DNA of 64,000 nt from Actinernus sp. WN-2022 (lineage: Eukaryota; Cnidaria; Anthozoa; Actiniaria; Actinernidae): positions 100,419,321 to 100,483,320 of the forward strand of contig JAOWCC010001634.1 of NCBI GenBank assembly GCA_030867875.1. Direction: 5' to 3'. Shown here piece after piece: positions 30,001 through 53,577 of the stretch. Position numbers and translations under genes: made by a program. How positions within the stretch are numbered: position 1 is the first letter of the stretch; the number at the start of each line of letters is the position of its first letter. Below the pieces are notes generated by a model. It saw nothing but the letters and a program-made list of their open reading frames with translations, made no database searches and had not been told where the DNA came from.

Positions 30001-33000
30001 TCGAATGCCACTTGTGCAGCTTGAACCCAGCGTCTTGAAAGATGGCCGTCGCCTTTTGTTTAAGCTGATGCGCTTCACTCACAGAGGTGGCTCCGGTAAT
30101 CAAGTCGTCCACGTACAACTCTCGCTTGATTCTAGCCACTACTTAAGGCTCTCTCTCCTCCCAACTGCTGAGATGGGTCTCAATAACTCCCCCGAGCAGA
30201 AATGGCGATGGCGCGAGCCCGAAAAGGGCCCTGGTAAATCTTAAAGTCTCTACCGGCGACTGTTCGCTCTGACGCCAATGAAATCGCATTGCGTCGCGGT
30301 CACTCTCCCTCACTCGCACCTGTAGAAACGCTTTCTGTAAGTCTCCTGTCACAGCTACCGGATTAAAACGGCCACGAACGAGAACGTCCCACAACTTGTT
30401 TTGCAATGGTGGTCCTGCGTGTAGACACTCATTGAGTGACGGGGCTCCGTCATACGCTCTCGCTGAAGCGTCGTAAACAATCCTTAACTTTGTTGACTCT
30501 TCTTCGGCTCGCACAACCGGTTTATGCGGAATGTAAAACTCTCTCCCCATAGCTGGTGTTTCAGCGCTCTCTACGATTCCTGTCGCCCTCTGCTCTTCTA
30601 TTATCTCGCTGTATTTGGCGGTCAGGTTTTGCCGTTCGATTTTGCGCACCAAACTGTTCAGGCGGCGCAGACTCCCCTCTTTGTTGTTGGGCAGCGGTCG
30701 ATGATCACCTCGCCATGGCAACCCGGTTTCGTAATATCCCTGCTCGTCACGCGTGAGCTGTTCTTTAAACTCAGTGTACACATCTCCTTGGTCGTTTGGC
30801 GGGTTATCTGCCAAGCCCAGCACGTCCAGACGGCACAACTCTTCATAATCTACATGCGAAGTTTGACATAGCAGCATGTTTGTTAGATCAACAGAATCCT
30901 TCCCCGGCGACATAATTGTCCATCCAAATCGCGTCAACTCTGCTATCGGTTCTCCCGTCTCGCCAATTTTAGGTGCAGTGTTTATCTTGAGTTTCGCATA
31001 TTCGCTTGCACCCAAGATCAAGTGAACCGGAAGTTTGTCTTTATTTCCAGGCTCATCCATGTGTACGCCAGTTAAATGTGCGTAAGATTGAATTAAATCT
31101 TTGTAGTGTGGATTGTCCAAAAACAACAGTTCACTCTTGTTGACCTTTGTTACTTGGACAGCCATAGAGAATTTGCTATCCAACGAAGTAATTTCTATCC
31201 TTGACAACTCAACTTCACGTGTGGTAGATCCCAGCATCATGTCAATTTTCCTCATTTGCTTCGTTGTCGAACGACGTTTCAGTTGATCCAAAAGTGCAGC
31301 TGAAGCATATGAACTTCCGGCTCCAGTGTCTAACAATGCTCTACATTTTACCCCTTCGATATTCACAATAACAACAGGATAAGTTACAGAACTTTGCTTG
31401 TCTCCTGTTGCGATAAGCATGTGATCACTTCCGTTCAAGCTGTCACATATTGAAGTGTAGTGTCGACGTTTGCAAACAAGACAACTGCCTTTGCTGGCGC
31501 ACTCATTGGCCCTGTGTTTTCCAGCTGCACAATTGAAACATAGCTTCTTCGTCGCCAGTATATTCTTTCGTTCCTTGACATCAGTCACTTTAACACAGTC
31601 TTTCGATTTGTGAGAGTCGTTCTCGCAGTAAACACAGCCAGCAGCATTTCCGGATCGCGGCTCCTGTTTACTCTGGGCGTTGTATAACGCGGTACGCGGT
31701 GTTTGCTTTTGTGTTCCACTGTGCCGATGTGGTGAAGGCCTCGGTTTATCCGGAGTGCTTTCCTCAACAGGATTGATGTCAATCCAACGTTTAAGCTCCC
31801 TCAACAGATCCTTAAAGTCCCAATCTCTCCAATTGTCATGTCCACGCACCAAGTCCGCTTTGATCCCTTTCAACTTGTCCAGCGTCGATCTCACATTCCC
31901 TTTCACGTCGCCCAATTTACCCAGCGTATCCAGGCTTTGCACATTGAATCGCAGTTGTTTATAGAAATCCTTTACCTTCCATGCACTCGAGCCATTAATA
32001 AAAGGGAGTTCCATAATATTTCGCGTATACGTGTTTATTATCTCACTTGTGTTACCGTATTCTGCTTCCAAGATAGCCTTTGCATTTTCGTATCCATCCT
32101 CAGTGAACGGGAGCCCGTCGATATCCGATCGTACGTGGTCTTCAAGCAATTCCTTCAAGTACCCAAACTTTGTGAGACTGGGCAGTTTGCTCGCGTCAAT
32201 CTCTGACTTAAACTTCCCCCAGAACGACAGCCAATCTTGCAGCCTTCCACTAAACCGAGTAATCGAAAGTTTCGGTAACTTCGCGGCACAATGAGTACCT
32301 GTACTCGCCTTGGCTGCGATCCCCGCTTCGTGTTCGAAGACACCTTTCTGTTCGAGCAACTCCTTTTCGAATTTGAGATTTTGTTTGTGTCTTTCAACCG
32401 CATCTTCCTCCCTTTCTCTGTCACTCAGTTCCTTTAGTGTAAGCGCCACTTTCTTGATCGCGTCGTCTCCTGATTCTAAGTATTTGTCGATTTCTCGGCT
32501 CCATTCCGCGATGGCGTCTTCGTTTTCACCCTTACCAAACTTCTTTTCTTCGATTGTTTCCTTTAACTCGGTAATTGCCTCCAGTATTGATTGAAGTGAT
32601 GTCTGATGTCTCTCTAAGCCCAACTTGTCTTGCTTTGAGAGCACATCGTCTGTTTTCTTCTGTCTAAAGCTAAGCGTTTTGAGCTTGTTGTTCAAATCAG
32701 CTATTAACTTATCCATTTTGTCTCGTTTGGGTTCTTCGCTCTTTCGAGCTTAAATCACGTTGATTTCAGTCCCTTCGTGGTCGCCACTGTGTCGTGAATT
32801 GCTTGTTGCACGTTCATCAACAATAACTCACAGGTTTATGATCTTGAAGTTTAATCACAATCACGGTTTGTCTCTTGTCACAATGTTTCACTCACTCCGT
32901 CTCTCGATCACCCACACACTCTCTCTCTCTAATCCGGTTGTTTTTTGTGTCTCTGAGTTACATGTCAAGTACATACGAATCGAGTATCCACATCTGATTG

Positions 33001-36000
33001 GATAACTAACGCCACACCCTGTATTGTGAATAGTTGTCTGGGTGTTACCTTACACTGTGCTTATGAACTAATTAAACTTCACTCATAACGCTCCACGCTT
33101 CACTTGCTGCATAATTATAATAGTATTACAATGGCCAATCTCCGACAGTTGTTCATGAAGGTGATCCACTGCCAAGCAAACGAGCAGCCTTGGTGGTTAT
33201 ATTCCTTGAAAAGAACTCTGTTGTTCGCATTCAGCTTCTGAGAATTGCAACTAATTTCTGCATCGTGAAACAGCTATCTGCTACGTCATCAGTATGGAAT
33301 TTTCTGCCTCGTTGCTCAGATGTCTCTTTCGCGAGTGGGGGAGCGATAAGAGTCGGCTGGTTTCCCAGGCTACCATCATGTCAGTCACATCGCTTTCCAA
33401 GTCTTGAACTTTATCGACGCCAAATCCTTCAAGTGCAGCTTCTTGTCCAAGCTTGTTCTTTGCCACACAATGCTTTCAGCATTGCGAAACGCCGCTTCAA
33501 ACAACATCGTATGGTAATTTCTTCATGTCATTCCCTTGAGATGTTCGTAATCGCAGGCGGTGATTACTCGAATATTTTGCATGGCGTTGTGAATACAAAG
33601 GTTCAATGGTTCATTAAGTAATATTATAAGTTTTTTAAGCCGTTTAATAAACTCACAGCACGTGTTTTATCAGGTCTAAAATTCTCGGGCTGCACCCTGG
33701 AGTTTTAAACCTGATAAAACACTGCTGCTCGTTTATTAAACAGTACTTTTAACCGGGTCGATATAAAAAACGACGAGGAGTACAGCTGTTTCAAATCTCG
33801 TGCAATGCGTGTTGCATTGCGCATGTTGAATTGTACGCATTGCATTGCGCATGTTGTGTTGCGTATGTTGCATTGTGCGTGTTGCATTGCGCATGTTGCA
33901 TTGCGTATGTTGTGTTGCGCATGTTGTGTTGCGTATGTTGTGTTGCGTATGTTGTGTTGCGTATGTTGTGTTGCGTATGTTGCATTGTGCGTGTTGCATT
34001 TCCTTGCAACTTCTCTCCCAACGGCTGAAAGCGATGTCTTGCAGTTGCATGAAAGAGGCAGGGGCGTAGCTAAACCTTGAGGTGTACGCACAGAGGACAA
34101 ACCTGTAGAGACCAAGCAGCCTGGGCTCAATCCCGGTTTCTGGGAAACTACCCACCCACCCCTCCTTGGTTATGCATCGTTCTATTAATGTATAACCATT
34201 AAAGGTTAGGGTGAAGTGTGGGGGAGGGGTGGGGGTTTCCCAGAAACCGTGATTGATCCGCAGCCTGTGGGAGTGGTCGGGGGGGGGGGAGCAAAGTATA
34301 ATAAAGTCATCAAGATTAAGTATACGCACGTGGGTATGTGAGTATAAATAGGCAATGTTTTATGCAACTTCTCTCTCGAAGTTGACCACAAAGCTTACGT
34401 AAATGAGCATTTCGTTGCGGAAAGTTCTACAACTTCGTATAACGCTTGAGCAAGCTGCAACAAAAATGTTGCGAAACATGTTGATTTCTTGGTATGTTAT
34501 ACTACGCAAATTGCGAGACAAGTTGCACCAAACGTTGCCTAGTACAGTATAGCAGTGCCTTTAAAGTGCCTATCACCTTTTTGCAATTTTTATAGCCTTT
34601 TTAGTATGAACCTCCGAAACATTTTGAGTACTTCTGTGAAGAAAGTTTTGGTTTATTACAGTGAATACGTTCTGTTCTACGCTTGTTTGAAATCGTGTAA
34701 ATGTGACCTTTCCTGACACAGGACCGCGTAAGTAAAAGCCTGGGTCGATACCTGTATAGACGTCATCTTGACGTCATCTAATTGATTCGACTTTGCAATC
34801 ATTTGAAGAAATACTTAGTGCATATATGCATGGTCAACAATTTGTATCATTAATATCAATTCTGCATCAAATGAATAGTTGAATAGTAGAATATTTCTTG
34901 ATTGAGTGTTGCGTCTACGAGTTAATGTGTTTATATTGGGCATTCGTAATCAGCGCTTTGCGCATTCCCTAAGGACCTCCCCTTGGAATATATAAGCATG
35001 TAATCACATTACGAATTCACTTGACCTTACCAGTTTACATTACTCACTTTGTTCTGCTACCGGGCCTAATTTTATTCAGTATTACAATGCATAATTACCA
35101 ATATGCATAATTACCAATATGCTAATATGTGACGTGTTTCGGGAATATACTGTCATTTCGTTTTCCTTGTGAATGAAACCGTTTACTGATTTTGACAAAA
35201 TATTTGGTAAAATCGCTGATATAAGCTTCAAATATAACATAGATGTTTATAAAAGGTCATTTATCTCTACCAGCAAGTTAGTTTTTGTATAATAAATGAA
35301 GAGCGGTTTGAAGTCACCGGCTTGAATATATTATAAATAAACCTCTATAACTCATGGATGCAACACTCAAATCGAGAAATATTTTACTATTCAACTATTC
35401 GCTTGATGTAGAATCGATAATTAATGATAAAAATATTTGACCATATATACACTTTAACCCTTTCCCTACTGGACATGTTTGGCTCAGTTGGTGAAATCCT
35501 GAGTGCTAACTCAACTCTCCCCCCTCAGTTCAAGTTTGGCTAGCCCGGGTCAGTTAAATACTGCTGACTTTTTAAGCCGAGGGCTCAAACTTTTCCCACA
35601 ATGCCATTTGGGAGAATTCTATTCACTCGTTGACGGTAGGTATGGCTGCTTCGGTAGGGTTTCTAATGAAATGAGCTCTAATTTTGGATAAATATGTTAC
35701 TGTCAGAGAGCTTGAAGACATCATTAAGTCTGAGGTTGGCTGAAAAGTACTTGGTTTGCTTCTAGTAGGCTTTGTGAGGGGATTTCACAGGGCTTTTCCG
35801 TTGTGTTTGTGATTTCAGACACAGGAAAAAATTATTCACTGAAATCCTTGGAATCCTGCAGTTGGCAGTCTTTTACCCCTGCTCAACCTATTAGGATGTG
35901 TTTTTGTCACTTTAAAGCAACGGCTTGAGTCCAAATCACCGCTCTTGGTTGTAGGGGTAAAAGACTTATGAAAAAAACCCTACCGGAGTACCAGAGGGGG

Positions 36001-38500: not shown

Positions 38501-38570
38501 GTAAATGACCAAATTAGGAGTCCCGTGACCAAATTAGGAGTCCCGTGACCAAATTAGGAGTGCCGTGACC
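38501..38570 (-). repeat. 20-bp minisatellite, about 4 units, related to 17.6 kb
   Basis: On the minus strand the unit reads CACGGCACTCCTAATTTGGT, close to the unit at 17641-17812. It stops 35 bp before the Polinton. Confidence 0.85.
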
Positions 38571-38604
38571 AAAATGCTTAGCGTGAAAACGGCGGGCGGA
38601 TTTG

Positions 38605-38859
38605 AGTAGTATATATAATGGCGGTTCTGGCACGCACCTCCGTTTTCAGTTTTATATCACATCCGATGACCCCCTCCCCCTAACGTATTTTTTTGACTTT
38701 GTTATACCAAATACCAACTTATTATCTCTCGAGTACCATAGATGTTGTAATTTGATACAACAAAGTCCAACAAATACGTTTGGGTTCGGGGGCCATCAAA
38801 CGTGATATAAAACTGAAAACAAATGCGCTGCGACCAGAACCGCCATATTATATACTACT
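38605..38859. repeat. Terminal 255-bp palindrome, left end
   Basis: AGTAGTATATATAATGGCGG and AACCGCCATATTATATACTACT pair across a centre at CTCGAG (38728-38733). The inner arms pair around TTTTCAGTTTTATATCAC and AAAGTCCAAC-type phrases. The end of the element can thus fold on itself. Confidence 0.88.
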
Positions 38860-38920
38860 ATAGTACGCTTATTGTATTTTGACGCCCTATTAGAGGAGGG
38901 TAAGTACAAGGTATTACACT

Positions 38921-41900
38921 ATGTCTGAACATATACTAGCATTCGTCCGAGCACCCGGCATTGGGGTTGATTTACACGGATGGAAGATGGATGTCCAAGA
39001 TGGTAATCCTCTAGGAGCAGACCCAGCCGCTTTCCTCGCCGGTGTGCGGAAGCAGACTACCGAAAAGCTCGAGGAAGAGCTCCAAGACCTCAATAGCCTT
39101 AAGCTTCAGCTAGCTTTGCACATAACGCTCCGGTTCGACAAACCTGAGGGTTCAGTATATGATATAGTTACCTTTCGGAGCTCGCAAACCGTTTTGACCA
39201 ACAGCGCTGAGATCCGTGGGGCAATAGTAGAAGCACATGCATGCTCAGATCTACAACCACATCGAGAAGTGGATCAGTCGAGGATCGAACTGGGTTATAG
39301 ATAGAGTCAACATTCTATGGTTAAACATCGCTCGATATCAACCACTACGTGGAGGTTCATATTTACTACTGCCTGCAGAAATCGCGAATAAGAAAGCCGT
39401 GATCAATGTGAAAAACGACGACAACCACTGCGCACTTTGGACGATAACAGCAGCGCTGCATCAAGTTGCGAAAAAAACCCAGAGAATATCAAAGTATCTA
39501 AAAGAAGATTGGCCGAAACACGAGGGGGTGGACTCACCAACACCAATTTCGCAAATACCACTATTGGAGAAGCAAAACGAAATCTCCATCAGCGTGTATG
39601 GTTGGGATCCAAAGGAAAAGTGTTTGATCGTACACCACATATCAAAGGAGACCTTCTCAAAGCGCGTTAACCTCTTACTTGTAGAGTGCCCAAAGAGTGG
39701 CCGGCAACACTACTGCTGGATGAAGGATTTCAACTGCCTTCTATTCGATCAAACAAAGCACGAACATAGGAAACATTTCTGTGAGCGATGTCTACATGGA
39801 TACAGTACTGAAGATCTTCTTAAGAAGCACATTCCAGAGTGTAACGGTGTCGACCACCGAGCCATTCGCATTGAAATGCCTACCAATGAGAACAACATAG
39901 TATCATTTCAGAATATCCACAAACAGCTCAAAGTTCCCTACGTTATCTATGCCGACCTTGAGGCTTTAACCACTAAGATCGAAGGACCTGCCCAAGACCC
40001 TGAAAAGAGCAACACACTGAAAACAGAAGAACATATTCCCTGTGGATTCTCCTACGTCGTTGTACGTTCTGATGGTCATAGCGAACCACCTGTACTATAT
40101 CGAGGTACGGAAACGATCGAGCGCTTTCTACGATGCGTACAAGAGGAAGAGGCGAAGATCAAAGCCCAAAAGGCCAAGCCGCTATGTATGCTGCCGAAAG
40201 ACCAGAGGGTCTATAATAGAGCAACGATTTTCCATATCTGCCAGAAGCCCTTGGTTGGTAGCGATAGAGTACGTGATCATTGCCACATCACAGGCGAGTT
40301 TCGAGGTGCCGCACATAGAGTCTGTAACCTCAAATTGCGTATCTCACCTACCATTCCAGTTGTATTCCACAACTTGCGTGGATACGATGCACACCTACTG
40401 ATGCAATCCATCTCAAAGACAGAGGGTGATATCTCTTGCATCCCAAACAATATGGAGAACTATATTTCATTCTCGCTTGGCAACCTACGGTTCATCGATA
40501 GCGCACAATTTCTACTATCCTCTCTCGACAAGCTGGTAGCAAGCGCTGCCCAAGACACATTCCATTAAACTACAAAGAATACGCCCGACCCAGATAAAAA
40601 CAAGTTGCTGCTTCGCAAAGGTGTCTACCCTTACGAGTACATGGACACTTGGGAAAAATTCGCAGAGACTTCTCTTCCACCAAAAGATGCATTCTATAGT
40701 AAACTAACCCTAGAGGACATATCCGACAAGGGCTATGAACACGCACTAGAAGTTTGGAACGTATTCGGTTGTAAAACATTGGGAGACTACCACGACCTTT
40801 ACCTCCAAACCGATGTACTTCTTCTAGCAGATGTGTTTGAGACTTTTCGCACGACATGCATGCAAAACTATGGCTTGGACCCGGCTCACTACTATACTAG
40901 CCCAGGACTCTCGTGGGATGCATTGTTAAAGAAGACTGGCGTGGAGCTTGAACTATTGACCGACTATGACATGCATCTATTCGTTGAGAAAGGTCTACGT
41001 GGTGGGATATCTATGGTATCTCAACGTTATGCTAAAGCAAACAACCTAAATATACCCGCTTTCGATCCCAATAAGCCAAATAGCCATATAGTCTACCTTG
41101 ATGCTAATAACCTATGCTAATAACCTATACGGTTGGGCTATGAGTCAATATCTACCAACTGGAGGATTCGAGTGGTGTATACTAACAGAAGAACAAATCA
41201 CCCAGCACGCGAGCAATTCAGATAAGGGTTACATCCTCGAAGTCGACCTCGAATATCCTCGAGAACTTCACGACGCACACAACAGCTATCCGCTAGCTCC
41301 CGAGAGAATGCAAGTGGATAAAGCTTGGTTCTCAGAGTATCAGACTGATCTATTTGAGGAACTATACAAAGGCAATGGATCTTTGAAAGCGGAGAAGCTT
41401 GTGCCTAACCTATATAACAAAGAACGATATGTGCTTCACTACCGCAACCTACAACTATACTTATCTCTTGGTATGCGTTTGAAAAAGATCCACAGAGCAC
41501 TACGATTCGACCAATCCCCATGGATGGAGCCATACATACGAATGAATACAGATCTACGAAAACAAGCGAATAGCACTTTCGAGCAAGACCTCTACAAATT
41601 AATGAATAATAGCGTATTTGGCAAAACAATGGAGAATCTACGAAAACGTGTAGATATCAAACTAGTGCGCTCTTCAGAAGGAATCAGACTACAGCGTCTC
41701 TTGAATAAACCTAGCTATGCTCGCTCCACAATCTTTGACAACGATCTAGCCGCTGTGCACAACTACAAAAGTAAGCTACTACTGAACCGCCCAGTATATG
41801 TTGGAATGTCAATTCTAGATCTCTCAAAACATCTGATGTATGACTTCTACTATAATGAGCTCAAGAAGCAGTATGGACAACGATGTAATCTACTATATAC

Positions 41901-42477
41901 AGATACTGACAGTCTATTACTATACATCGAAACTGAAGACATCTATGCAGACATGGCTATCAACAAACATCTCTATGATACAAGCAACTATAGCAAGGAC
42001 CATCCATCGTATAACACAGACAACAAGAAAGTACTTGGTAAAATGAAAGACGAATGTGAAGGTTTTCCCATAGTTGAATATGTTGGGCTACGATCAAAGC
42101 TCTACTCGATATTGAAAGTAGGTGGTGGTGAGATTAGGAAGGCTAAAGGCACCAAGAAGGAAGTCGTGAAACATCGTATTCGTCATGAACAATACAAAGA
42201 GTGTTTACTAGATAAGAAAGTATTCCGCCATGGAATGCATATGCTTCGAAGTGAAGGTCACAGGATGTATGGTATGCATATGAACAAAGTATCTCTATCA
42301 CCATTCGATAGTAAGCGCTGGATTTCAGCAAACGGAATCGATACACTAGCCTATGGGCACAAAGACACCGAGGAAAACTTTGATGACCTCATGGATGAGT
42401 TGCTATCTTATGAACATAAAGATACGATTTCAGTAGAGGTAAACTTAGACGATTTTATTTGCGAGCTGCTATCCTAG
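38921..42477 (+). pseudogene. Polinton protein-primed DNA polymerase B, left copy (broken)
   Basis: PolB copies the linear element from a protein primer. Read in order: N-terminal part from the ATG at 38921; 3'-5' exonuclease motifs YADLE (about 39950) and HNLRGYDAH (about 40370); an inserted zinc/HNH-like module CQKP...RVRDHCHITGEFRGAAH (about 40240-40330); polymerase motif A DANNLYGWAM (about 41100-41140), motif B KLMNNSVFGKT (about 41600) and motif C YTDTDS (about 41900). Breaks: a 4-bp CATG-type duplication at 39236-39244, a TAA at 40566-40568 and a 13-bp tandem duplication at 41103-41128. The C-terminus is intact to TAG at 42475-42477 and overlaps the integrase end by about 20 bp. Confidence 0.92.
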
Positions 42478-43507
42478 GTCGGGTTGGCACGAATAGAATA
42501 CCCTTTGGAGGTAATTCCGTATCTAGTGGTACTATCTGTAGCTCTTCACGCACAAACCCTCGCTTTGGTGCATCTTTTCCCAAATAGTACAGAACTGGTT
42601 GGTTCGAAGATATCACACTTCGAGAAATAACATATGTCTGTAAACTCCACACAGGATCAGTTGCTCGCTTGGCTCCACCTTCCAACTCCCCAGGCGCATA
42701 GAGATATCGAACTAGAACATCGAATGGTATGCGCTTTTCTTCTAATCCAACAGTCCGCGAATATGTAGGAGTTTTTATGTTCACCTGCTGTGACACAACA
42801 GAATTCGAAGGGTTCTTTCCTGTCAGTCGACTAACTTCATTATTCATGGCTTTTACGACCTCTGGAAGACGCAGCACCCATTCTCTACTACGCGCATCCG
42901 ACCCTTCTGAAGTAAGCACCATCTCCTGTGCGTATTGATATCCAAACAATCTCTCGGCTAGCGTTCTATTTGCTCGCTCAACGAATCCTTGCGCCCTATG
43001 GTTACCAACCTCACCTCGTTGGACTTTCGTACCATCTAGTTCTAAGGTTTCAGACATACGCCCCATGAATTCTCTACCAGGATCGACTTGTAACGTTTTT
43101 GGCCATGTTAATGGACTACGCCGGTAGATTCGTTCAAAAGCTGCAGACACTTCACCACTATCTTTCGAGGCTAAGGGCTCAGCTTCTTTATATCGAGAAG
43201 CCACATCGATTACCACTAAGGCATATTTATAGAGCTTTCGCCCCCGTCCAGGTCGATCGTGAGGTAGAAAGATCAAATCAGCCTGGTGAACCTCATTAGG
43301 TTTCGATACAGTCCAATGTGGTCGTGGGATATATCGCGGTGGTGGTAGGTATATCTGCCATAGTGCTTGTTTCTCTAACAAACTTGCAGCGGCGTCTTCT
43401 GATACCTTTGCTGCTACTGATAGCTTACCAATCGCAGCGCGGCCTTTCCAGTAGCCAAGAGGACCATAGAAGATATTTGCAAGGCGAGCATCCATCATAT
43501 ATAGCAT
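42455..43507 (-). CDS. Polinton integrase, left copy, intact
   Basis: 350 aa retrovirus-type integrase that joins element ends to target DNA. The catalytic triad is D77 (HQADLIF), D142 (LQVDPGREF) and E177 (GFVERAN), spacing D-x34-E. The N-terminal part (GYWKGRAAIGKL) and a C-terminal region with PRRG-like basic residues and EELQIVPLD follow the Polinton pattern. It converges tail to tail with PolB. The open frame is intact here and in the right arm. Confidence 0.93.
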   Translation of the reverse strand: MLYMMDARLANIFYGPLGYWKGRAAIGKLSVAAKVSEDAAASLLEKQALWQIYLPPPRYIPRPHWTVSKPNEVHQADLIFLPHDRPGRGRKLYKYALVVIDVASRYKEAEPLASKDSGEVSAAFERIYRRSPLTWPKTLQVDPGREFMGRMSETLELDGTKVQRGEVGNHRAQGFVERANRTLAERLFGYQYAQEMVLTSEGSDARSREWVLRLPEVVKAMNNEVSRLTGKNPSNSVVSQQVNIKTPTYSRTVGLEEKRIPFDVLVRYLYAPGELEGGAKRATDPVWSLQTYVISRSVISSNQPVLYYLGKDAPKRGFVREELQIVPLDTELPPKGILFVPTRPRIAARK

Positions 43508-43532
43508 AACGATGAGACCCTAATACTAAGAC

Positions 43533-43586
43533 AAAAAAGAAGAATAAAGACTCGTCTAGCCCAACTAGTTCTTATTCTTCTTTTTT
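43533..43586 (-). promoter_or_regulatory. Intergenic hairpin between retropepsin-like gene and integrase, left
   Basis: AAAAAAGAAGAATAA pairs with TTATTCTTCTTTTTT across a 24-nt loop. It lies after one minus-strand gene and before the next. A role in 3' end formation is a guess. The mirror copy is at about 47855-47908. Confidence 0.5.
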
Positions 43587-43607
43587 GCATTGATTTATTC
43601 TCAACCA

Positions 43608-44192
43608 TCATTCGTATATTGGTATTAGGTCTAAGTATCCACCACTCTCCATATGGAGCAGACTTTTGATTTGTCGGGGTTCTGGATTACACTTGAGCAT
43701 TACCGTCTCTTTATTTTCGACATATAAGTCTACCAGATGTTCGTGCCCTATTACCAAACCGATTTTGCCTACCCTGGATGTAGGTAAATCCTGGAGAAGC
43801 CACTCAAAGTACGTATTGTTTAAGACTTCATGCGAGTAAACCACAGCACTACGAAGGTTGAATAATCTACCCTCCTCAATAGATTGCAATTCTAGATCTA
43901 CTAAGGAGAGTATCTTGGTTCCATTACCTTCTAAACGTAACTCAGTTGTATCGGCTGACCGTAGCTCTACCGACTCTACCTCACGTTCGAAACCTAACTC
44001 GGCTAGTAGATAATAGGTACAATATGAAATAGGAGAGTTTAGGTCCAGTAAAGCACATTTAGCCCTTACATTAACCGATGCTACCCGTACGGGCCTTTCC
44101 TCGTGTTTTGAATGTGTCCCGTTGGGCATCTTAACTTGTGCGTTAATCGAAAGTTGCCTCTTGAAGTTCTCCTTGACTTGCACTTCTTCCAT
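43608..44192 (-). CDS. Retropepsin-like (DUF1758-like) protein in Polinton, left copy
   Basis: About 194 aa from ATG at 44192 (the frame is open to 44258). CALLDLNSPISY at about 46-57 aligns with the ALLDSGSQ active-site strand of retropepsins of BEL/Pao and DUF1758 type, with LN in place of SG/TG. GLVIGHEHLVDLY later matches the second conserved psi strand (IGxDxxxxL). A 24-bp stretch just before the Asp is missing relative to the right copy, flanked by a shared TG, so this copy has a small in-frame deletion. Polintons normally carry an adenain Cys protease instead. Whether this protein cleaves anything is uncertain since the Gly after Asp is absent. Confidence 0.55.
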   Translation of the reverse strand: MEEVQVKENFKRQLSINAQVKMPNGTHSKHEERPVRVASVNVRAKCALLDLNSPISYCTYYLLAELGFEREVESVELRSADTTELRLEGNGTKILSLVDLELQSIEEGRLFNLRSAVVYSHEVLNNTYFEWLLQDLPTSRVGKIGLVIGHEHLVDLYVENKETVMLKCNPEPRQIKSLLHMESGGYLDLIPIYE

Positions 44193-44221
44193 TTTAATAA
44201 AAAGTTGCCTCTGATACGTAT

Positions 44222-44236
44222 GTGTATATATAGCTT
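44222..44236 (-). promoter_or_regulatory. TATA-like box of the retropepsin-like gene, left
   Basis: On the minus strand GCTATATATACAC lies 30-40 bp upstream of the ATG at 44192, supporting that start over the longer frame. It is mirrored at 47180-47194. Confidence 0.5.
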
Positions 44237-44341
44237 TAAATGGATGTAGAAAAAACAACTTTTGCGCTATACCTAGTAGTCTAGTAAGTAATTGCCAGCA
44301 ACCTCAACGAACATAAAAAGACTCGTTTTTAAAAAGCATAG

Positions 44342-44773
44342 CTATAGCCAGCGGCTAGCAGCGTAGCCAGCGCCTAGCATTCCACCCCCAACAGAGATCA
44401 ACTCACCAGTCTTCTGCTCACTCGAAGGTCGATAGTAGTCAGATACCTGAGGTTCTTTCATTGCTTTGATTCGTTCCAGTGCCTGGCGTAGCTTATCGGA
44501 TCGCACGAAAGCTTTGTTGGTGTCTTTTAGCGCATCGTAAGCAGAACGCTCCTTACCTTCCTGTTCTATAGCATTATCGTATAATCTTTGACGTTCCTTG
44601 TTGTAGACCATCATGGCATTTTCTTGCTTCTCTATGGCCCTATCGTGTCTCTCTCGTTCTATAGCGATTCTTTCACTATCTTTTCCAGCAAAGAGCTTAG
44701 CAATCACCCCACCACCGGTGAATGCCGTCGCATTCAAAACAGCTCCGAAAATGGCCATTCCAATGCCCACCAA
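44342..44773 (-). CDS. Polinton small membrane/coiled-coil protein, left copy
   Basis: About 143 aa. An N-terminal hydrophobic Gly/Ala-rich segment (GAVLNATAFTGGGVIAKL) is followed by a long charged helix (IERERHDRAIEKQENAMM) and a hydrophobic C-terminus (GGGMLGAGYAASRWL). It looks like a virion-type minor membrane protein. The mirror copy shows an ATG five codons upstream of this start, mutated to ATT here, while that copy has a stop shortly after it. No family name assigned. Confidence 0.6.
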   Translation of the reverse strand: MVGIGMAIFGAVLNATAFTGGGVIAKLFAGKDSERIAIERERHDRAIEKQENAMMVYNKERQRLYDNAIEQEGKERSAYDALKDTNKAFVRSDKLRQALERIKAMKEPQVSDYYRPSSEQKTGELISVGGGMLGAGYAASRWL

Positions 44774-44790
44774 TGTTGCAATGGGTACTC

Positions 44791-45012
44791 TTACAAATAG
44801 TCCGGTATGTATTTATATTTTAAGAGATATTGCTTTGCGGCTATGCCACCAGCCACCACGGCCGTCCACTTCACGTAATTTACTATAGAAGCAGAAGGAT
44901 CGTTAAGCATAGGTTCCTTAACGACCTTTCTTGCAATCCAACCAATGCCTGTAGCGAGCCCAGTAACTATAGCAGCGTCAGCTACTGCCTTCATCAAATT
45001 ATTCTCTACCAT
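44791..45012 (-). CDS. Polinton small transmembrane protein, 73 aa
   Basis: Contains hydrophobic segments (AIVTGLATGIGW and WTAVVAGGIAAKQYLL). This is the only full-length copy: the right arm begins inside it at GIGWIARKV, joined to ATPase sequence. Function unknown. Confidence 0.6.
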   Translation of the reverse strand: MVENNLMKAVADAAIVTGLATGIGWIARKVVKEPMLNDPSASIVNYVKWTAVVAGGIAAKQYLLKYKYIPDYL

Positions 45013-45061
45013 CCTCCTATGACATATAACCTATGGTCCTAGTCTTCAAATGTTTATCGTT

Positions 45062-45331
45062 CTACTCCATATCCGGCAATGCTACCTTCGTAGTCCCTAC
45101 TGGACTCGCGGGTTGTATCGTACTAATATTCTTAGGGGCGTCGTCTCTGTATATTCTGTATTGATAGTACGCCCCCACCAACGAAGCGCCTACGCCAATG
45201 GCTGCTAGAGTAGTATTGGTAGATATGGTTTTTGACCAGCTTCCCCCCACATCGGTTTCTTTAGATAATTCACCTTCACGTGTCAACTCTCTCTTTTGAG
45301 CCTCTCTAGCGCGTTTATTGCTTTCTGCCAA
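45062..45331 (-). CDS. Polinton small transmembrane protein, about 89 aa
   Basis: A basic N-terminus (KRAREAQKRELTREGE) and one membrane segment (TLAAIGVGASLVGAYYQY). The open frame extends upstream with DPKRVAAGKALAES before 45331. An ATG lies one base out of frame near 45367, so the start may be damaged. It lies in the single-copy centre. Confidence 0.55.
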   Translation of the reverse strand: MAESNKRAREAQKRELTREGELSKETDVGGSWSKTISTNTTLAAIGVGASLVGAYYQYRIYRDDAPKNISTIQPASPVGTTKVALPDME

Positions 45332-45374
45332 TGCTTTTCCAGCTGCAACACGCTTTGGATCTTTTCATTTTTTC

Positions 45375-45932
45375 TCAGGCACAGTCTTTGGGGGATTCGC
45401 AGTTATCTGATCCGTTTCCTCCATCTTGCTTCGATATAGTAGTTATGTGTGAAGGTTCAATAGGTGTGATAGTAGAGGTACCAGGAAGGACTATGTGACC
45501 AGATACATGGAACAAGACGCTAGCTAGCGCTACAAAGCGACCTGCTTTAAGTGATAATAGGCCAGTCACAGCACTGATCTCATTGCGGACTAGGTGGTCT
45601 TCTTGTAGATCTTTGATCAGTGCTTCTTGAGAGTCTATGGGTACTAGGTAAGCAACTAATCGGGTAGCTAGACGCATCACACCATCGACTAAGCTTCCTG
45701 TTATTTGCTGAGCTAGAACGGCCTGATATCTTCTATATAATCTATCTACTTCTTTCTCAGGTAGTCTAGAAATGTCTCCTAGAGAGAAATTTTTCCCTAG
45801 ATAATCCTTTGTTGTACCTGTTGCAGCCAAAATTGCAAGTGCTTCGCGGTTATCTGTTACGACGTCCTCTGTTTTAGGCGGTGGGCCTGTTACATCCTCA
45901 CCCTCTAGTAGAAGTACTTTTTCATCACCCAT
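45375..45932 (-). CDS. Polinton hypothetical protein, 185 aa
   Basis: Starts MGDEKVLLLEGEDV and has an acidic N-terminus, then an amphipathic middle (YLGKNFSLGDISRLPEKEVD, QAVLAQQITGSLVDG) and a hydrophobic stretch (SLKAGRFVALASVLFHVSG). I cannot name the family. Single copy, in the centre of the palindrome; its start overlaps the stop of an upstream minus-strand frame. Confidence 0.55.
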   Translation of the reverse strand: MGDEKVLLLEGEDVTGPPPKTEDVVTDNREALAILAATGTTKDYLGKNFSLGDISRLPEKEVDRLYRRYQAVLAQQITGSLVDGVMRLATRLVAYLVPIDSQEALIKDLQEDHLVRNEISAVTGLLSLKAGRFVALASVLFHVSGHIVLPGTSTITPIEPSHITTISKQDGGNGSDNCESPKDCA

Positions 45933-46130
45933 GATAATATGCAGTAGGTGCGGGTAGCTCTAACACTACCGCAAAAGGATGTCGTAAGCACAAACATATG
46001 CGAGCGAACTTGTGAGACCGAAGCACTGCTCGTAACTCACTGCCTTCTTGCGAGCCTCCATAGTCCCCGAATAGCCTTTTTCCATCTATAGCCGATGCGG
46101 TATGGAAGGCAACTACGACGGTTAAGTTTT
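45925..46130 (-). pseudogene. C-terminal remnant of an unidentified Polinton gene
   Basis: A minus-strand frame ending in a stop at 45925-45927 that overlaps the next ATG, as linked viral genes often do. Upstream it runs into the ATPase fragment, which lies on the opposite strand. I infer a junction near 46125-46140. The residues are not recognised. Confidence 0.35.
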
Positions 46131-46456
46131 CGTGGTAAGTTTGACTACATAGTATTAGTGTGCCCCACGTACGCCCACAACAAAACATATCGTGGATTCG
46201 CCAATCGAGATCCACACTTCTATGTTGTATCACCACCACAGGATTCTATTAATGCCGCATTACATATTTGTGAAACCTTTTGGGCTGGGACCAATACTCT
46301 ATTGATTCTAGATGATTGTGCCGCCTCAAAGGATGTCAAGAAACGAACCAACAAACTCGTGGATTTGGCCTTTTCTGCTCGACATATCGGTATTTCAGTT
46401 TGGGTGCTCTCCCAACAATTAACAAGCATATGCAAACCTTTCCGCGAAAACGTAGC
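46131..46456 (+). pseudogene. Polinton packaging ATPase (A32/FtsK-HerA type), fragment
   Basis: Encodes a middle portion with GKFDYIVLVCPTY, TYRGF and the Walker B strand NTLLILDDCA (about 46300-46325), then SARHIGISVWVLSQQL. This pattern is typical of Polinton and NCLDV packaging ATPases. The Walker A N-terminus is absent (a TAG sits in frame at 46089-46091). The 3' end is fused at 46457 to the mirrored 73-aa membrane gene, so the protein is truncated at both ends. Confidence 0.75.
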
Positions 46457-46622
46457 CGCTACAGGCATTGGTTGGATTGCAAGAAAGGTCGTTAAGGAAC
46501 CTATGCTTAACGATCCTTCTGCTTCTATAGTAAATTACGTGAAGTGGACGGCCGTGGTGGCTGGTGGCATAGCCGCAAAGCAATATCTCGTGAAATATAA
46601 ATACATACCGGACTATTTGTAA
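46457..46622 (+). pseudogene. Truncated copy of 73-aa membrane protein (right arm)
   Basis: Carries only the GIGWIARKV-to-stop part, in frame with the ATPase fragment, giving a chimeric frame 46095-46622. The fusion is a by-product of the junction. Confidence 0.75.
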
Positions 46623-46654
46623 GAGTACCCATGGCAACATTGGTGGGCATTTGA

Positions 46655-47071
46655 ATGGCCATTTTCGGAGCTGTTTTGAATGCGACGGCATTCACCGGTG
46701 GTGGGGTGATTGCTAAGCTCTTTGCTGGAAAAGATAGTGAAAGAATCGCTATAGAACGAGAGAGACACGATAGGGCCATAGAGAAGCAAGAAAATGCCAT
46801 GATGGTCTACAACAAGGAACGTCAAAGATTATACGATAATGCTATAGAACAGGAAGGTAAGGAGCGTGCTGCTTACGATGCGCTAAAAGACACCAACAAA
46901 GCTTTCGTGCGATCCGATAAGCTACGCCAGCCACTGGAACGAATCAAAGCAATGAAAGAACCTCAGGTATCTGACTACTATCGACCTTCGAGTGAGCAGA
47001 AGACTGGTGAGTTGATCTATGTTGGGGGTGGAATGCTAGGCGCTGGCTACGCTGCTAGCCGCTGGCTATAG
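46655..47071 (+). pseudogene. Polinton small membrane/coiled-coil protein, right copy
   Basis: Mirror of 44342-44773 with three residue changes over 138. An ATG at 46630 is followed after seven codons by TGA, so translation would need the later ATG at 46655. Confidence 0.65.
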
Positions 47072-47222
47072 CTATGCTTTTTAAAAACGAGTCTTTTTAT
47101 GTTCGGTGAGGTTGCTGGCAATTACTTACTAGACTACTAGGTATAGCGCAAAAGTTGTTTTTTCTACATCCATTTAAAGCTATATATATACACATACGTA
47201 TCAGAGGCAACTTTTTATTAAA

Positions 47223-47831
47223 ATGGAAGAAGTGCAAGTCAAGGAGAACTTCAAGAGGCAACTTTCGATTAACGCACAAGTTAAGATGCCCAACCGGACA
47301 CATGCAAAACACGAGGAAAGGCCCGTACGGGTAGCATCGGTTAATGTAAGGGCTAAATGAACCGGAAAATTCGTCCACACTCGTGCTTTACTGGACCTAA
47401 ACTCTCCTATTTCATATTGTACCTATTATCTACTAGCCGAGTTAGGTTTCGAACGTGAGGTAGAGTCGGTAGAGCTACGGTCAGCCGATACAACTGAGTT
47501 ACGTTTAGAAGGTAATGGGACCAAGATACTCTCCTTAGTAGATCTAGAATTGCAATCTATTGAGGAGGGTAGATTATTCAACCTTCGTAGTGCTGTGGTT
47601 TACCCGCATGAAGTCTTAAACAATACGTACTTTGAGTGGCTTCTCCAGGATTTACCTACATCCAGGGTAGGCAAAATCGGTTTGGTAATAGGGCACGAAC
47701 ACCTGGTAGACTTATATGTCGAAAATAAAGAGACGGTAATGCTCAAGTGTAATCCAGAACCCCGACAAATCAAAAGTCTGCTCCATATGGAGAGTGGTGG
47801 ATACTTAGACCTAATACCAATATACGAATGA
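47223..47831 (+). pseudogene. Retropepsin-like protein, right copy (nonsense)
   Basis: ATG at 47223 corresponds to the left ATG at 44192. A TGA at about 47358-47360 interrupts it. This copy keeps a 24-bp segment, absent on the left, that leads into the Asp strand (GKFVHTRALLD), which is closer to typical retropepsins. It is thus the ancestral length with a later nonsense change. Confidence 0.6.
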
Positions 47832-47931
47832 TGGTTGAGAATAAATCAATGCAAAAAAGAAGAATAAGAACTAGTTGGGCTAGACGAGTCTTTATTCTTC
47901 TTTTTTGTCTTAGTATTAGGGTCTCATCGTT

Positions 47932-48984
47932 ATGCTATATATGATGGATGCTCGCCTTGCAAATATCTTCTATGGTCCTCTTGGCTACTGGAAAGGCCGC
48001 GCTGCGATTGGTAAGCTATCAGTAGCAGCAAAGGTATCAGAAGACGCCGCTGCAAGTTGGTTAGAGAAACGAGCACTATGGCAGATATACCTACCACCAC
48101 CGCGATATATCCCACGACCACATTGGACTGTATCGAAACCTAATGAGGTTCACCAGGCTGATTTGATCTTTCTACCTCACGATCGACCTGGACGGGGGCG
48201 AAAGCTCTATAAATATGCCTTAGTGGTAATCGATGTGGCTTCTCGATATAAAGAAGCTGAGCCCTTAGCCTCGAAAGATAGTGGTGAAGTGTCTGCAGCT
48301 TTTGAACGAATCTACCGGCGTAGTCCATTAACATGGCCAAAAACGTTACAAGTCGATCCTGGTAGAGAATTCATGGGGCGTATGTCTGAAACCTTAGAAC
48401 TACATGGTACGAAAGTCCAACGAGGTGAAGTTGGTAACCATAGTGCGCAAGGATTCGTTGAGCGAGCAAATAGAACGCTAGCCGAGAGATTGTTTGGATA
48501 TCAATACGCACAGGAGATGGTGCTTACTTCAGAAGGGTCGGATGCGCGTAGTAGAGAATGGGTGTTGCGTCTTCCAGAGGTAGTAAAAGCCATGAATAAT
48601 GAAGTTAGTCGACTGACAGGAAAGAACCCTTCGAATTCTGTTGTGTCACAGCAGGTGAACATAAAAACTCCTACATATTCGCGGACTGTTGGATTAGAAG
48701 AAAAGCGCATACCATTCGATGTTCTAGTTCGATATCTCTATGCGCCTGGGGAGTTGGAAGGTGGAGCCAAGCGAGCAACTGATCCTGTGTGGAGTTTACA
48801 GACATATGTTATTTCTCGAAGTGTGATATCTTCGAACCAACCAGTTCTGTACTATTTGGGAAAAGATGCACCAAAGCGAGGGTTTGTGCGTGAAGAGCTA
48901 CAGATAGTACCACTAGATACGGAATTACCTCCAAAGGGTATTCTATTCGTGCCAACCCGACCTAGGATAGCAGCTCGCAAATAA
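47932..48984 (+). CDS. Polinton integrase, right copy, intact
   Basis: 350 aa, four substitutions from the left copy, none in the D77/D142/E177 triad. Two intact integrases within one element mean it could still be mobilised if ends and replication are supplied in trans (inference). Confidence 0.93.
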   Translation: MLYMMDARLANIFYGPLGYWKGRAAIGKLSVAAKVSEDAAASWLEKRALWQIYLPPPRYIPRPHWTVSKPNEVHQADLIFLPHDRPGRGRKLYKYALVVIDVASRYKEAEPLASKDSGEVSAAFERIYRRSPLTWPKTLQVDPGREFMGRMSETLELHGTKVQRGEVGNHSAQGFVERANRTLAERLFGYQYAQEMVLTSEGSDARSREWVLRLPEVVKAMNNEVSRLTGKNPSNSVVSQQVNIKTPTYSRTVGLEEKRIPFDVLVRYLYAPGELEGGAKRATDPVWSLQTYVISRSVISSNQPVLYYLGKDAPKRGFVREELQIVPLDTELPPKGILFVPTRPRIAARK

Positions 48985-48996
48985 AATCGTCTAAGT

Positions 48997-51900
48997 TTAC
49001 CTATACTGGAATCGTATCTTTATGTTCATAAGATAGCAACTCATCGATGAGGTCATCAAATTTTTCTTGGTGTCTTTGTGCCCATAGGCTAGTGTATCGA
49101 TTCCGTTTGCTGAAATCCAGCGTTTACTATCGAATGGTGATAGAGATACTTTGTTCATATGCATACCATACATCCTGTGACCTTCACTTCGAAGCATATG
49201 CATTCCATGGCGGAATACTTTCTTATCTAGTAAACACTCTTTGTATTGTTCATGACGAATACGATGTTTCACGACTTCCTTCTTGGTGCCTTTAGCCTTC
49301 CTAATCTCACCACCACCTACTTTCAATATCGAGTAGAGCTTTGATCGTAGCCCAACATATTCAACTATGGGAAAACCTTCACATTCGTCTTTCATTTTAC
49401 CAAGTACTTTCTTGTTGTCTGTGTTATACGATGGATGGTCCTTGCTATAGTTGCTTGTATCATAGAGATGTTTGTTGATAGCCATGTCTGCATAGATGTC
49501 TTCAGTTTCGATGTATAGTAATAGACTGTCAGTATCTGTATATAGTAGATTACATCGTTGTCCATACTGCTTCTTGAGCTCATTATAGTAGAAGTCATAC
49601 ATCAGATGTTTTGAGAGATCTAGAATTGACATTCCAACATATACTGGGCGGTTCAGTAGTAGCTTACTTTTGTAGTTGTGCACAGCGGCTAGATCGTTGT
49701 CAAAGATTGTGGAGCGAGCATAGCTAGGTTTATTCAAGAGACGCTGTAGTCTGATTCCTTCTGAAGAGCGCACTAGTTTGATATCTACACGTTTTCGTAG
49801 ATTCTCCATTGTTTTGCCAAATACGCTATTATTCATTAATTTGTAGAGGTCTTGCTCGAAAGTGCTATTCGCTTGTTTTCGTAGATCTGTATTCATTCGT
49901 ATGTATGGCTCCATCCATGGGGATTGGTCGAATCGTAGTGCTCTGTGGATCTTTTTCAAACGCATACCAAGAGATAAGTATAGTTGTAGGTTGCGGTAGT
50001 GAAGCACATATCGTTCTTTGTTATATAGGTTAGGCACAAGCTTCTCCGCTTTCAAAGATCCATTGCCTTTGTATAGTTCCTCAAATAGATCAGTCTGATA
50101 CTCTGAGAACCAAGCTTTATCCACTTGCATTCTCTCGGGAGCTAGCGGATAGCTGTTGTGTGCGTCGTGAAGTTCTCGAGGATATTCGAGGTCGACTTCG
50201 AGGATGTAACCCTTATCTGAATTGCTCGCGTACTGGGTGATTTGTTCTTCTGTTAGTATACACCACTCGAATCCTCCAGTTGGTAGATATTGACTCATAG
50301 CCCAACCGTATAGGTTATTAGCATCAAGGTAGACTATATGGCTATTTGGCTTATTGGGATCGAAAGCGGGTATATTTAGGTTGTTTGCTTTAGCATAACG
50401 TTGAGATACCATAGATATCCCACCACGTAGACCTTTCTCAACGAATAGATGCATGTCATAGTCGGTCAATAGTTTAAGCTCCACGCCAGTCTTCTTTAAC
50501 AATGCATCCCACGAGAGTCCTGGGCTAGTATAGTAGTGAGCCGGGTCCAAGCCATAGTTTTGCATGCATGTCGTGCGAAAGGTCTCAAACACATCTGCTA
50601 GAAGAAGTACATCGGTTTGGAGGTAAAGGTCGTGGTAGTCTCCCCATGTTTTACAACCGAATACGTTCCAAACTTCTAGTGCGTGTTCATAGCCCTTGTC
50701 GGATATGTCCTCTAGGGTTAGTTTACTATAGAATGCATCTTTTGGTGGAAGAGAAGTCTCTGCGAATTTTTTCCCAAGTGTCCATGTACTCGTAAGGGTA
50801 GACACCTTTGCGAAGCAGCAACTTGTTTTTATCTGGGTCGGGCGTATTCTTTGTAGTTCAATGGAATGTGTCTTGGGAAGCGCTTGCTACCAGCTTGTCG
50901 AGAGAGGATAGTAGAAATTGTGCGCTATCGATGAACCGTAGGTTGCCAAGCGAGAATGAAATATAGTTCTCCATATTGTTTGGGATGCAAGAGATATCAC
51001 CCTCTGTCTTTGAGATGGATTGCATCAGTAGGTGTGCATCGTATCCACGCAAGTTGTGGAATACAACTGGAATGGTAGGTGAGATACGCAATTTGAGGTT
51101 ACAGACTCTATGTGCGGCACCTCGAAACTCGCCTGTGATGTGGCAATGATCACGTACTCTATCGCTACCAACCAAGGGCTTCTGGCAGATATGGAAATCT
51201 TGCTCTATTATAGACCCTCTGGTCTTTCGGCAGCATACATAGCGGCTTGGCCTTTTGGGCTTTGATCTTCGCCTCTTCCTCTTGTACGCATCGTAGAAAG
51301 CGCTCGATCGTTTCCGTACCTCGATATAGTACAGGTGGTTCGCTATGACCATCAGAACGTACAACGACGTAGGAGAATCCACAGGGAATATGTTCTTCTG
51401 TTTTCAGTGTGTTGCTCTTTTCAGGGTCTTGGGCAGGTCCTTCGATCTTAGTGGTTAAAGCCTCAAGGTCGGCATAGATAACGTAGGGAACTTTGAGCTG
51501 TTTGTGGATATTCTGAAATGATACTATGTTGTTCTCATTGGTAGGCATTTCAATGCGAATGGCTCGGTGGTCGACACCGTTACACTCTGGAATGTGCTTC
51601 TTAAGAAGATCTTCAGTACTGTATCCATGTAGACATCGCTCACAGAAATGTTTCCTATGTTCGTGCTTTGTTTGATCGAATAGAAGGCAGTTGAAATCCT
51701 TCATCCAGCAGTAGTGTTGCCGGCCACTCTTTGGGCACTCTACAAGTAAGAGGTTAACGCGCTTTGAGAAGGTCTCCTTTGATATGTGGTGTACGATCAA
51801 ACACTTTTCCTTTGGATCCCAACCATACACGCTGATGGAGATTTCGTTTTGCTTCTCCAATAGTGGTATTTGCGAAATTGGTGTTGGTGAGTCCACCCCC

Positions 51901-52500
51901 TCGTGTTTCGGCCAATCTTCTTTTAGATACTTTGATATTCTCTGGGTTTTTTTCGCAACTTGATGCAGCGCTGCTGTTATCGTCCAAAGTGCGCAGTGGT
52001 TGTCGTCGTTTTTCACATTGATCACGGCTTTCTTATTCGCGATTTCTGCAGGCAGTAGTAAATATGAACCTCCACGTAGTGGTTGATATCGAGCGATGTT
52101 TAACCATAGAATGTTGACTCTATCTATAACCCAGTTCGATCCTCGACTGATCCACTTCTCGATGTGGTTGTAGATCTGAGCATGTGCTTCTACTATTGCC
52201 CCACGGATCTCAGCGCTGTTGGTCAAAACGGTTTGCGAGCTCCGAAAGGTAACTATATCATATACTGAACCCTCAGGTTTGTCGAACCGGAGCGTTATGT
52301 GCAAAGCTAGCTGAAGCTTAAGGCTATTGAGGTCTTGGAGCTCTTCCTCGAGCTTTTCGGTAGTCTGCTTCCGCACACCAGCGAGGAAAGCGGCTGGGTC
52401 TGCTCCTAGAGGATTACCATCTTGGACATCCATCTTCCATCCGTGTAAATAAACCCCAATGCCGGGTGCTCGGACGACTGCTAGTATATGTTCAGATAGT
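48997..52500 (-). pseudogene. Polinton protein-primed DNA polymerase B, right copy (broken)
   Basis: Mirror of 38921-42477. The start codon region lost 2 bp near 52496, there is a 2-bp deletion near 51194-51201, a TGA at 50858-50860, and a 1-bp loss near 49061 that shifts the C-terminus. Between these, exonuclease motifs and all three polymerase motifs are present (DANNLYGWAM near 50320, NNSVFGKT near 49820, YTDTDS near 49530). Lesions other than the 50858 stop differ from those of the left copy. Confidence 0.92.
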
Positions 52501-52559
52501 GTAATACCTTGTACTTATCCTCCTCTAATAGGGCGTCAAAATACAATAAGCGTACTATA

Positions 52560-52814
52560 GTAGTATATAATATGGCGGTTCTGGTCGCAGCACATTTGTT
52601 TTCAGTTTTATATCACGTTTGATGGCCCCCGAACCCAAACGTATTTGTTGGACTTTGTTGTACCAAATTACAACATCTATGGTACTCGAGAGATAATAAG
52701 TTGGGATTTGGTATAACAAAGTCCAAAAAATACGTTAGGGGGAGGGGGTCATCGGATGTGATATAAAACTGAAAACGGAGGTGCTGTGCCAGAACCGCCA
52801 TTATATATACTACT
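52560..52814. repeat. Terminal 255-bp palindrome, right end
   Basis: Mirror of 38605-38859, with about five changes, and again self-complementary around CTCGAG. Confidence 0.88.
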
Positions 52815-53577
52815 TGTTGTACCAAAGTGAAGCTTGGTGGTGATCAATTCATTCGTTGTATCTCCGCGCGCCTCGGTATGATTCTAGTTAATCTTTTTTC
52901 CTATAAAAATAATAATATTTGGAGCTAATAGTGGATTACTTTTAGGTTTAAATTGTGTTCGTAAGATCAAATTGTGTGTTATAGTACAGGTGCTGTTCAT
53001 TAACCACAATCCTTTGCGGTAAGAAAACGTTAAAACGTGCTCTGGTCTTCCCTGATTATCGAGGGAAGCTTAAAATCTTCAAAAACTTGTCGACAAAAAA
53101 TAAAAATTGCGTGAGGTACGCCGAAAAATGTACCAACTGAATTTAAAAACTCTCAGAAAAACCAACCATACTTCGGTACAATTTCCTTTTGTTTTCAGAC
53201 GATTTGACAAGTGACCAGCGCAGAGAATTGGAATAAAATGGACGGCCGCTATTTTGTGGTCCAGCTCATAATTTTTGCAACTGCTGCTCTTTTTACTTTT
53301 TTATATTTGCGGAATTTTTGGAAATCTTTTTTTTTTCACGAATGGAACGTTATTATCATGAAGTGAAACGACCACTTCTCAATTTGTTCCTCAAGCGACC
53401 GTGACTACCTGTGATTTCTATTTTTCTATTAACCTGAGCTGAGAGGCCACCTAGAAGCTAGAGTTTATACAAAAGTTCATTTTGCAATTCTAGTCGTTGG
53501 TTATAAAAAGGTCTTCATTTATATACGGTGCAAATTCTATATGAATATATTCAAATGCGCTCCACAAGGTTATTTAA
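52815..53577. other. Intergenic, no gene seen
   Basis: AT-rich. A phrase at about 53367-53430 recurs at 55970-56033 (containing TTTGTTCCTCAAGCGACCGT). Confidence 0.5.

Follow-up and report, generated by a model that had tools for sequence, protein, structure and literature searches.

When examining a stretch of 64,000 nucleotides from the genome of the actiniarian Actinernus sp. WN-2022 (hereafter, the window: contig JAOWCC010001634.1 of the GenBank assembly GCA_030867875.1, positions 100,419,321 to 100,483,320 of the forward strand, renumbered here from 1), we observed that a transposon of the Polinton (Maverick) class is present in the form of a 14-kb palindrome, in which two inverted copies of the same end of the element, each about 6.35 kb long, are separated by a short single-copy centre. 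Both outer termini of this structure are intact, the target-site duplication (TSD) that accompanies ordinary integration is absent, the two flanks are dissimilar and the centre appears to be patched. We are inclined, with due reservation, to regard the palindrome as the product of two separately inserted Polinton copies that each suffered an internal break and became linked through a deletion or an inversion.

Comparison of the window with itself yielded a single long reverse-complement match between positions 38605-44956 and 52814-46457 (98.6% identity over 6,380 alignment columns, with 40 mismatches and 10 gap openings; E=0), and the same inverted match was also visible, in a separate self-comparison, as nine ungapped blocks. 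The global alignment of one arm against the other contains 42 substitutions, namely, 20 transitions and 22 transversions, along with 9 indels. An E value of 0 rules out a chance origin of the palindrome, and the neutral pattern of the arm differences, which is described below, rules out a folded artefact of a single read. Reading inward from either terminus, the first gene is PolB, which is followed on the other strand by an integrase of the rve family and open reading frames (ORFs) of approximately 231 and 156 amino acids (aa). The original prediction, made from the letters of this DNA alone, is borne out in these respects: the locus consists of Polinton DNA, one end of the element is present twice as long inverted arms that carry PolB (fragmented in both arms), integrase and several small genes, and the single-copy centre measures about 1.5 kb (1,500 bases). 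It was also correct in that the arms are far longer than the usual terminal inverted repeats (TIRs), which range from 46 to 1,447 bp in intact vertebrate Mavericks according to a published account (PMC8097293). Outside the palindrome, sequence comparison within the window detected no further sequence resembling this Polinton.

The left arm opens with AGTAGT at position 38605 and the right arm closes with ACTACT at position 52814, that is, the conserved Polinton/Maverick end motif is present at both termini, and the alignment of the arms ends exactly at these motifs. In vertebrate Mavericks, 5'-(AGT)2//(ACT)2-3' is the commonest terminal motif, intact copies are accompanied by 6-bp TSDs, and a TSD served as one of the criteria in the study concerned (PMC8097293). 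Because both termini of the palindrome retain the intact end motifs, the integrase plausibly made both ends. The hexamers that flank the composite, GATTTG on the left and TGTTGT on the right, are identical at only two of the six positions, so a 6-bp TSD around the whole is absent; when repeats of 5-9 bp were sought no more than 3 bases away from the ends, the sole case with a single mismatch was a 4/5 match. Loss of a TSD by decay is hardly credible because the arms differ by only 0.7-1.8% (0.66% overall and 1.8% in the outermost 436 bases): under a simple binomial model, the chance of decay to at least four mismatches out of six is about 3e-8 at 0.33% change per arm, about 3e-6 at 1.1% and 0.001 at 5%. 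Thus, if the integrase made both ends, the palindrome did not arise by one ordinary integration. The left and right flanks show no similarity to each other in the comparison within the window; the arm copy stops at the transposon terminus, and the right flank does not continue as an inverted left flank. A 20-bp minisatellite located just to the left of the palindrome (38506-38573) recurs in the inverted orientation at 17626-17812. No empty site was found within the window, given that the sequences diverge beyond the minisatellite array at 17.6 kb and the right flank is unmatched there.

The centre consists of two unlike parts. Past the arm, the left copy continues as in an intact element, with ORFs of 71, 100 and 186 aa on one strand, up to approximately position 46110, and the remainder is a fragment of a packaging ATPase on the opposite strand, which matches the Pox_A32 profile with E=1.1e-4 and 22.2 bits, just below the cut-off of 22.8. 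No Walker A pattern was found in the three forward frames from 45700 to 46160, and by eye, the fragment starts past the position of Walker A in the ATPase of one of the related loci discussed below (L017). The centre is thus not devoid of Polinton core genes, since it holds a piece of one. At 46456/46457, the ATPase fragment passes in frame into the right-arm remnant of the 71-aa ORF; at this point the two copies part, with no similarity beyond, and there is certainly a junction here. A second junction would lie near 46105-46130, as suggested by the truncation of the ATPase and not by alignment to a relative. The centre looks more complex than a single copy-back switch, although copy-back together with a separate small deletion would also fit it, if not the missing TSD. 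The 186-aa protein belongs to Polinton-like elements, judging from its one homologue and from a match near PolB on another related locus (L014), which is weak and lies downstream of PolB on the opposite strand.

The differences between the arms look neutral: the 25 coding substitutions comprise 18 replacements and 7 silent changes, with an expected replacement share of 77.7% in the absence of selection (p=0.47). When nine PolB homologues were used for comparison, every frame break found affected one arm only, and when the replacement codons of PolB and integrase were compared with homologues, 6 of the 11 could be clearly assigned, with the left arm changed in 2 and the right arm in 4. Because the frame breaks differ and the clear replacements fall in both arms, the two copies appear, from the sequences, to have decayed independently in the host. 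Two observations complicate this picture. First, PolB harbors a stop at the same codon in both arms, in two different spellings, through which the homologues read: none of the 90 that align here with the left arm (83 with a residue and 7 with a gap, out of the 120 listed) and none of the 88 that align with the right arm (81 and 7, respectively) has a stop at this position. Second, the substitutions are unevenly distributed, with two substitution-free runs of 1,187 and 1,109 bases (P=0.008 for the longest; 0 of 20,000 simulations for the second longest) and 8 of the 42 substitutions within the outermost 436 bases (p=0.007, post hoc). The shared stop and the identical stretches suggest either arm-to-arm conversion or a common defective parent: conversion would explain both the stop and the uneven substitutions, as would differences in rate if combined with a defective parent as the source of the stop. 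Among the 22 transversions, 17 are A:C or G:T pairs; the other repeats compared are too small to judge the spectrum of the host.

The combination of intact termini without a TSD, dissimilar flanks and a patched centre points to two separate insertions joined via their interiors. Under this scenario, two copies of one Polinton subfamily would have integrated separately, each by means of its integrase and at a different site, the opposite end of each copy being absent from the window; an interior break in each copy would have been followed by repair that joined two same-side halves, either by deletion between inverted neighbours or by inversion between copies in the same direction; the short piece of the ATPase would have ended up at the join, and gene conversion between the arms may have come afterwards. 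If inversion was the route, the two capsid-side halves should lie joined to each other elsewhere, as the reciprocal product. Several considerations weigh against such a history. The shared in-frame stop in PolB would not be expected from a working parent and requires either that the parent was itself defective and was mobilised in trans, or that the arms underwent conversion later; the two copies were broken at comparable depths (approximately 7.5 and 6.4 kb), a mild coincidence; and the 6-bp rule for TSDs comes from vertebrate Mavericks and may not hold for the subfamily of the palindrome, for which 5-9 bp were tried here.

The original prediction had offered a different history, namely, that an extrachromosomal, protein-primed Polinton switched template, that the product was a defective palindrome identical at its two ends, and that this ready-made genome was then integrated. 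Several features would follow naturally from such an event: both outer ends are the same intact native terminus; the neutral differences between the arms are what would be expected had the arms started out nearly identical; a stop common to both PolB copies is unsurprising if both arms derive from one molecule; Mavericks encode a protein-primed PolB (PMC8097293); and the boundary at 46456/46457 is the expected copy-back junction if the truncation of the ATPase near 46110 is a separate deletion. However, integration of such a molecule predicts a 6-bp TSD beside the intact (AGT)2...(ACT)2 ends, which is not what is seen, and the second junction that is likely present in the centre is a further difficulty. 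To accommodate the missing TSD, the ends must have joined two different targets, or else a later rearrangement must have occurred exactly at the terminus, and we regard this origin as rather unlikely. A related reading, in which Polintons make extrachromosomal copy-back palindromes, the locus results from aberrant integration into two targets and the 255-base termini described below are part of a fold-back-prone replication end, we consider doubtful.

An error of assembly, whereby separate loci of the same repeat family, or the two haplotypes of one locus, were misjoined, has to be considered as well, inasmuch as 6.35-kb arms with 98.6% identity exceed the length of short reads. Nevertheless, the window is free of Ns, the neutral pattern of the 42 substitutions and 9 indels is not what a folded single read would produce, and the joins fall in sequence that is non-repeated within the window, where repeat collapse rarely joins, so an artefact of this kind appears unlikely. 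Finally, a single integrated and already decayed Polinton end could have been duplicated in the inverted orientation at the level of the host, by break-induced copying and with no second insertion. The shared PolB stop and the piece of ATPase at the join are both compatible with such a duplication, but the copy ends exactly at the terminus, with no inverted left flank beyond it, and recombination with the original far TIR, had this been what terminated the copying, should have left the TSD in place, whereas none is present; this history strikes us as highly improbable.

Each terminus of the palindrome is itself a near-palindrome of 255-256 bases, with the end motif repeated at its inner edge. 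The right terminus, the one that was folded as DNA, gave -84.3 kcal/mol (z=-20.4 compared to 200 shuffles). The halves of these hairpins differ by 19-22%, far more than the arms differ from each other, and for this reason, the terminal near-palindrome probably is older than the large one. Conceivably, it is a hairpin replication end or the relic of a mini-element. The inner copies of the motif are part of these terminal hairpins and there are only two outer ends, which rules out a second nested insertion with four TIRs.

Palindromic defective genomes of adenoviruses have two identical ends and a unique internal centre, and are not integrated. The locus described here shares with them the identical ends and the unique centre but differs in that there is no TSD to mark integration as one unit and in that the centre seemingly is patched; a literature search for such palindromes returned nothing on point among titles and beginnings of abstracts. 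Long inverted repeats trimmed at the centre are a phenomenon of host genomes, and they too resemble the locus, with inverted copies and an asymmetric spacer; here, by contrast, the spacer contains a piece of ATPase on the opposite strand. No report of palindromic or tail-to-tail Polintons was found by title or beginning of abstract in the open-licence literature; in PMC12721341, the expression 'tail-to-tail' refers to the orientation of genes.

The best 120 of the 7,990 scored homologues of PolB were inspected and are up to 72% identical to it. The ten best are 67-71% identical; nine of these match PF03175 alone and one also matches PF02945, which identifies the protein as a PolB of the Polinton type. 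In the Pfam scan, PF03175 had no match in the PolB pieces of the palindrome itself, where the gene is broken in both arms. A minority of these 120 homologues carry a name, and among them are proteins of molluscs (Elysia and Bradybaena), a nemertean (Tubulanus), a coral (Oculina) and a snake (Pantherophis), which, by sequence similarity, places the element among the widespread animal Polintons. The integrase has 3,023 homologues, with 56-65% identity among the 120 listed. The 231-aa ORF matched no Pfam family, even at E values as high as 1; in a single comparison, it showed 27% identity over 124 aa (E=3e-4) to the aspartyl-protease region of a retroelement elsewhere in the window, and what we take to be the D-T/S-G-like site is altered. 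No Pfam match to a capsid or cysteine protease was found in the 12 ORF pieces of the element, Pfam being weak for Polinton capsids.

Vertebrate Mavericks, as described in PMC8097293, share with this element the (AGT)2/(ACT)2 termini, a PolB of the Polinton type, the rve integrase, small ORFs and, as far as the sub-threshold fragment in the centre can show, a packaging ATPase of the FtsK/HerA type, but their PolB and integrase belong to separate modules, whereas here the two genes are adjacent and convergent. Eighteen loci of relatives were compared: 16 contigs from the PolB search (L001-L016), 15 of them 3-7 kb long, are filed under bacterial or archaeal metagenome-assembled genomes (MAGs), and their Polinton-type PolB probably reflects eukaryotic contamination; a search of viral contigs with the PolB alignment yielded two distant loci (45-46%). 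Searches of the viral contigs with the integrase, the integrase alignment, the end motif and the ATPase fragment yielded no loci. The nearest of the loci with both PolB and integrase, L008, comes from a MAG labelled Oligoflexia and probably is animal contamination; it shares the main part of PolB (58-63%) and the integrase (61%), convergent and adjacent, but the N-terminal part of PolB is only 36-40% identical, and this 5.1-kb locus has no terminus and no visible inverted repeat. Of the four loci that carry PolB along with a significant match to the integrase, two (L008 and L017) have these genes convergent and adjacent, and in L006 and L011, the integrase is upstream on the same strand; L017, L006 and L011 are more distant than L008. 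Since two of the four loci, including the nearest one, show the order seen in the arms, this order probably is native to the element. When the 18 loci were compared with themselves, only short inverted repeats of 24-76 bp were found, in L003, L005, L017 and L018, and a more sensitive examination of five loci revealed a further pair of imperfect repeats (33-49 bp) in L001 and another such pair in L002. None of the 18 has a terminal repeat like that of the palindrome, a result of little weight because these loci are pieces of contigs.

Elsewhere in the window, positions 27033-33147 hold an element with long terminal repeats that are 98.6% identical and with DUF1759, protease, integrase and DUF5641 domains, which we take to be of the BEL/Pao type. 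Arrays of satellite DNA, in which the repeat period is roughly 140 or 40 bases, occupy 19565-24118 and 60364-64000, and a piece of a CLN3-like gene at 4044-5060 (Pfam CLN3, E=1.8e-20) probably belongs to the host.

Table 1. Features of the palindromic Polinton and its borders (window coordinates)
Feature	Positions	Strand	Remarks
Left flanking hexamer GATTTG	38599..38604	+	Candidate TSD without partner
Left arm	38605..44956	+	Polinton end, from terminus to inside the 71-aa ORF; 98.6% to reverse complement of 46457-52814
Left terminal near-palindrome	38605..38859	+	AGTAGT...ACTACT, motif at both edges; 77.9% to own reverse complement
PolB, left copy, broken	38894..42477	+	In-frame stop 40566-40568; left-only frame breaks near 39236 (4-bp duplication) and 41101 (13-bp duplication)
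rve integrase, left copy	42455..43519	-	ORF open over 354 codons
231-aa ORF, left copy	43608..44303	-	Weak likeness to BEL/Pao aspartyl-protease region
156-aa ORF, left copy	44342..44812	-	From ORF list
71-aa ORF	44800..45012	-	Own Met in left copy (71 codons read); cut at 46457 in right copy
Single-copy centre	44957..46456		1,500 bases; continuation of left copy plus ATPase fragment
100-aa ORF, single copy	45062..45364	-	From ORF list
186-aa ORF, single copy	45375..45935	-	One homologue (50% over 70%); 29% match on L014
Open frame, maybe end of a further ORF	45928..46110	-	Cut near 46105-46130 (by eye); no Pfam match
Packaging-ATPase fragment without Walker A	46110..46456	+	In frame with right-arm remnant of 71-aa ORF; Pox_A32 profile positions 39-149 of 242
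Right arm	46457..52814	-	Inverted copy of left-arm Polinton end
156-aa ORF, right copy	46655..47071	+	138 aa from its Met
231-aa ORF, right copy	47361..47831	+	Shortened to 156 aa; 24-nt insertion at its start
rve integrase, right copy	47920..48984	+	ORF open over 354 codons; PF00665 E=1e-9
PolB, right copy, broken	48997..52514	-	Stop at same codon, 50858-50860; right-only frame breaks near 51199 and 50772
Right terminal near-palindrome	52559..52814	-	Same design, motif at both edges; 80.9% to own reverse complement
Right flanking hexamer TGTTGT	52815..52820	+	Candidate TSD without partner

Were the palindrome to represent a defective genome that had integrated, it would constitute physical evidence that Polintons replicate extrachromosomally as protein-primed linear DNA. 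A rearranged pair of insertions is more likely, and this matters for annotation, where the locus would otherwise pass for a single Polinton with TIRs of record length; the missing TSD beside intact termini is a clean test for such composites. Whatever the origin of the palindrome, the hairpin-forming termini merit attention in intact relatives of this element.

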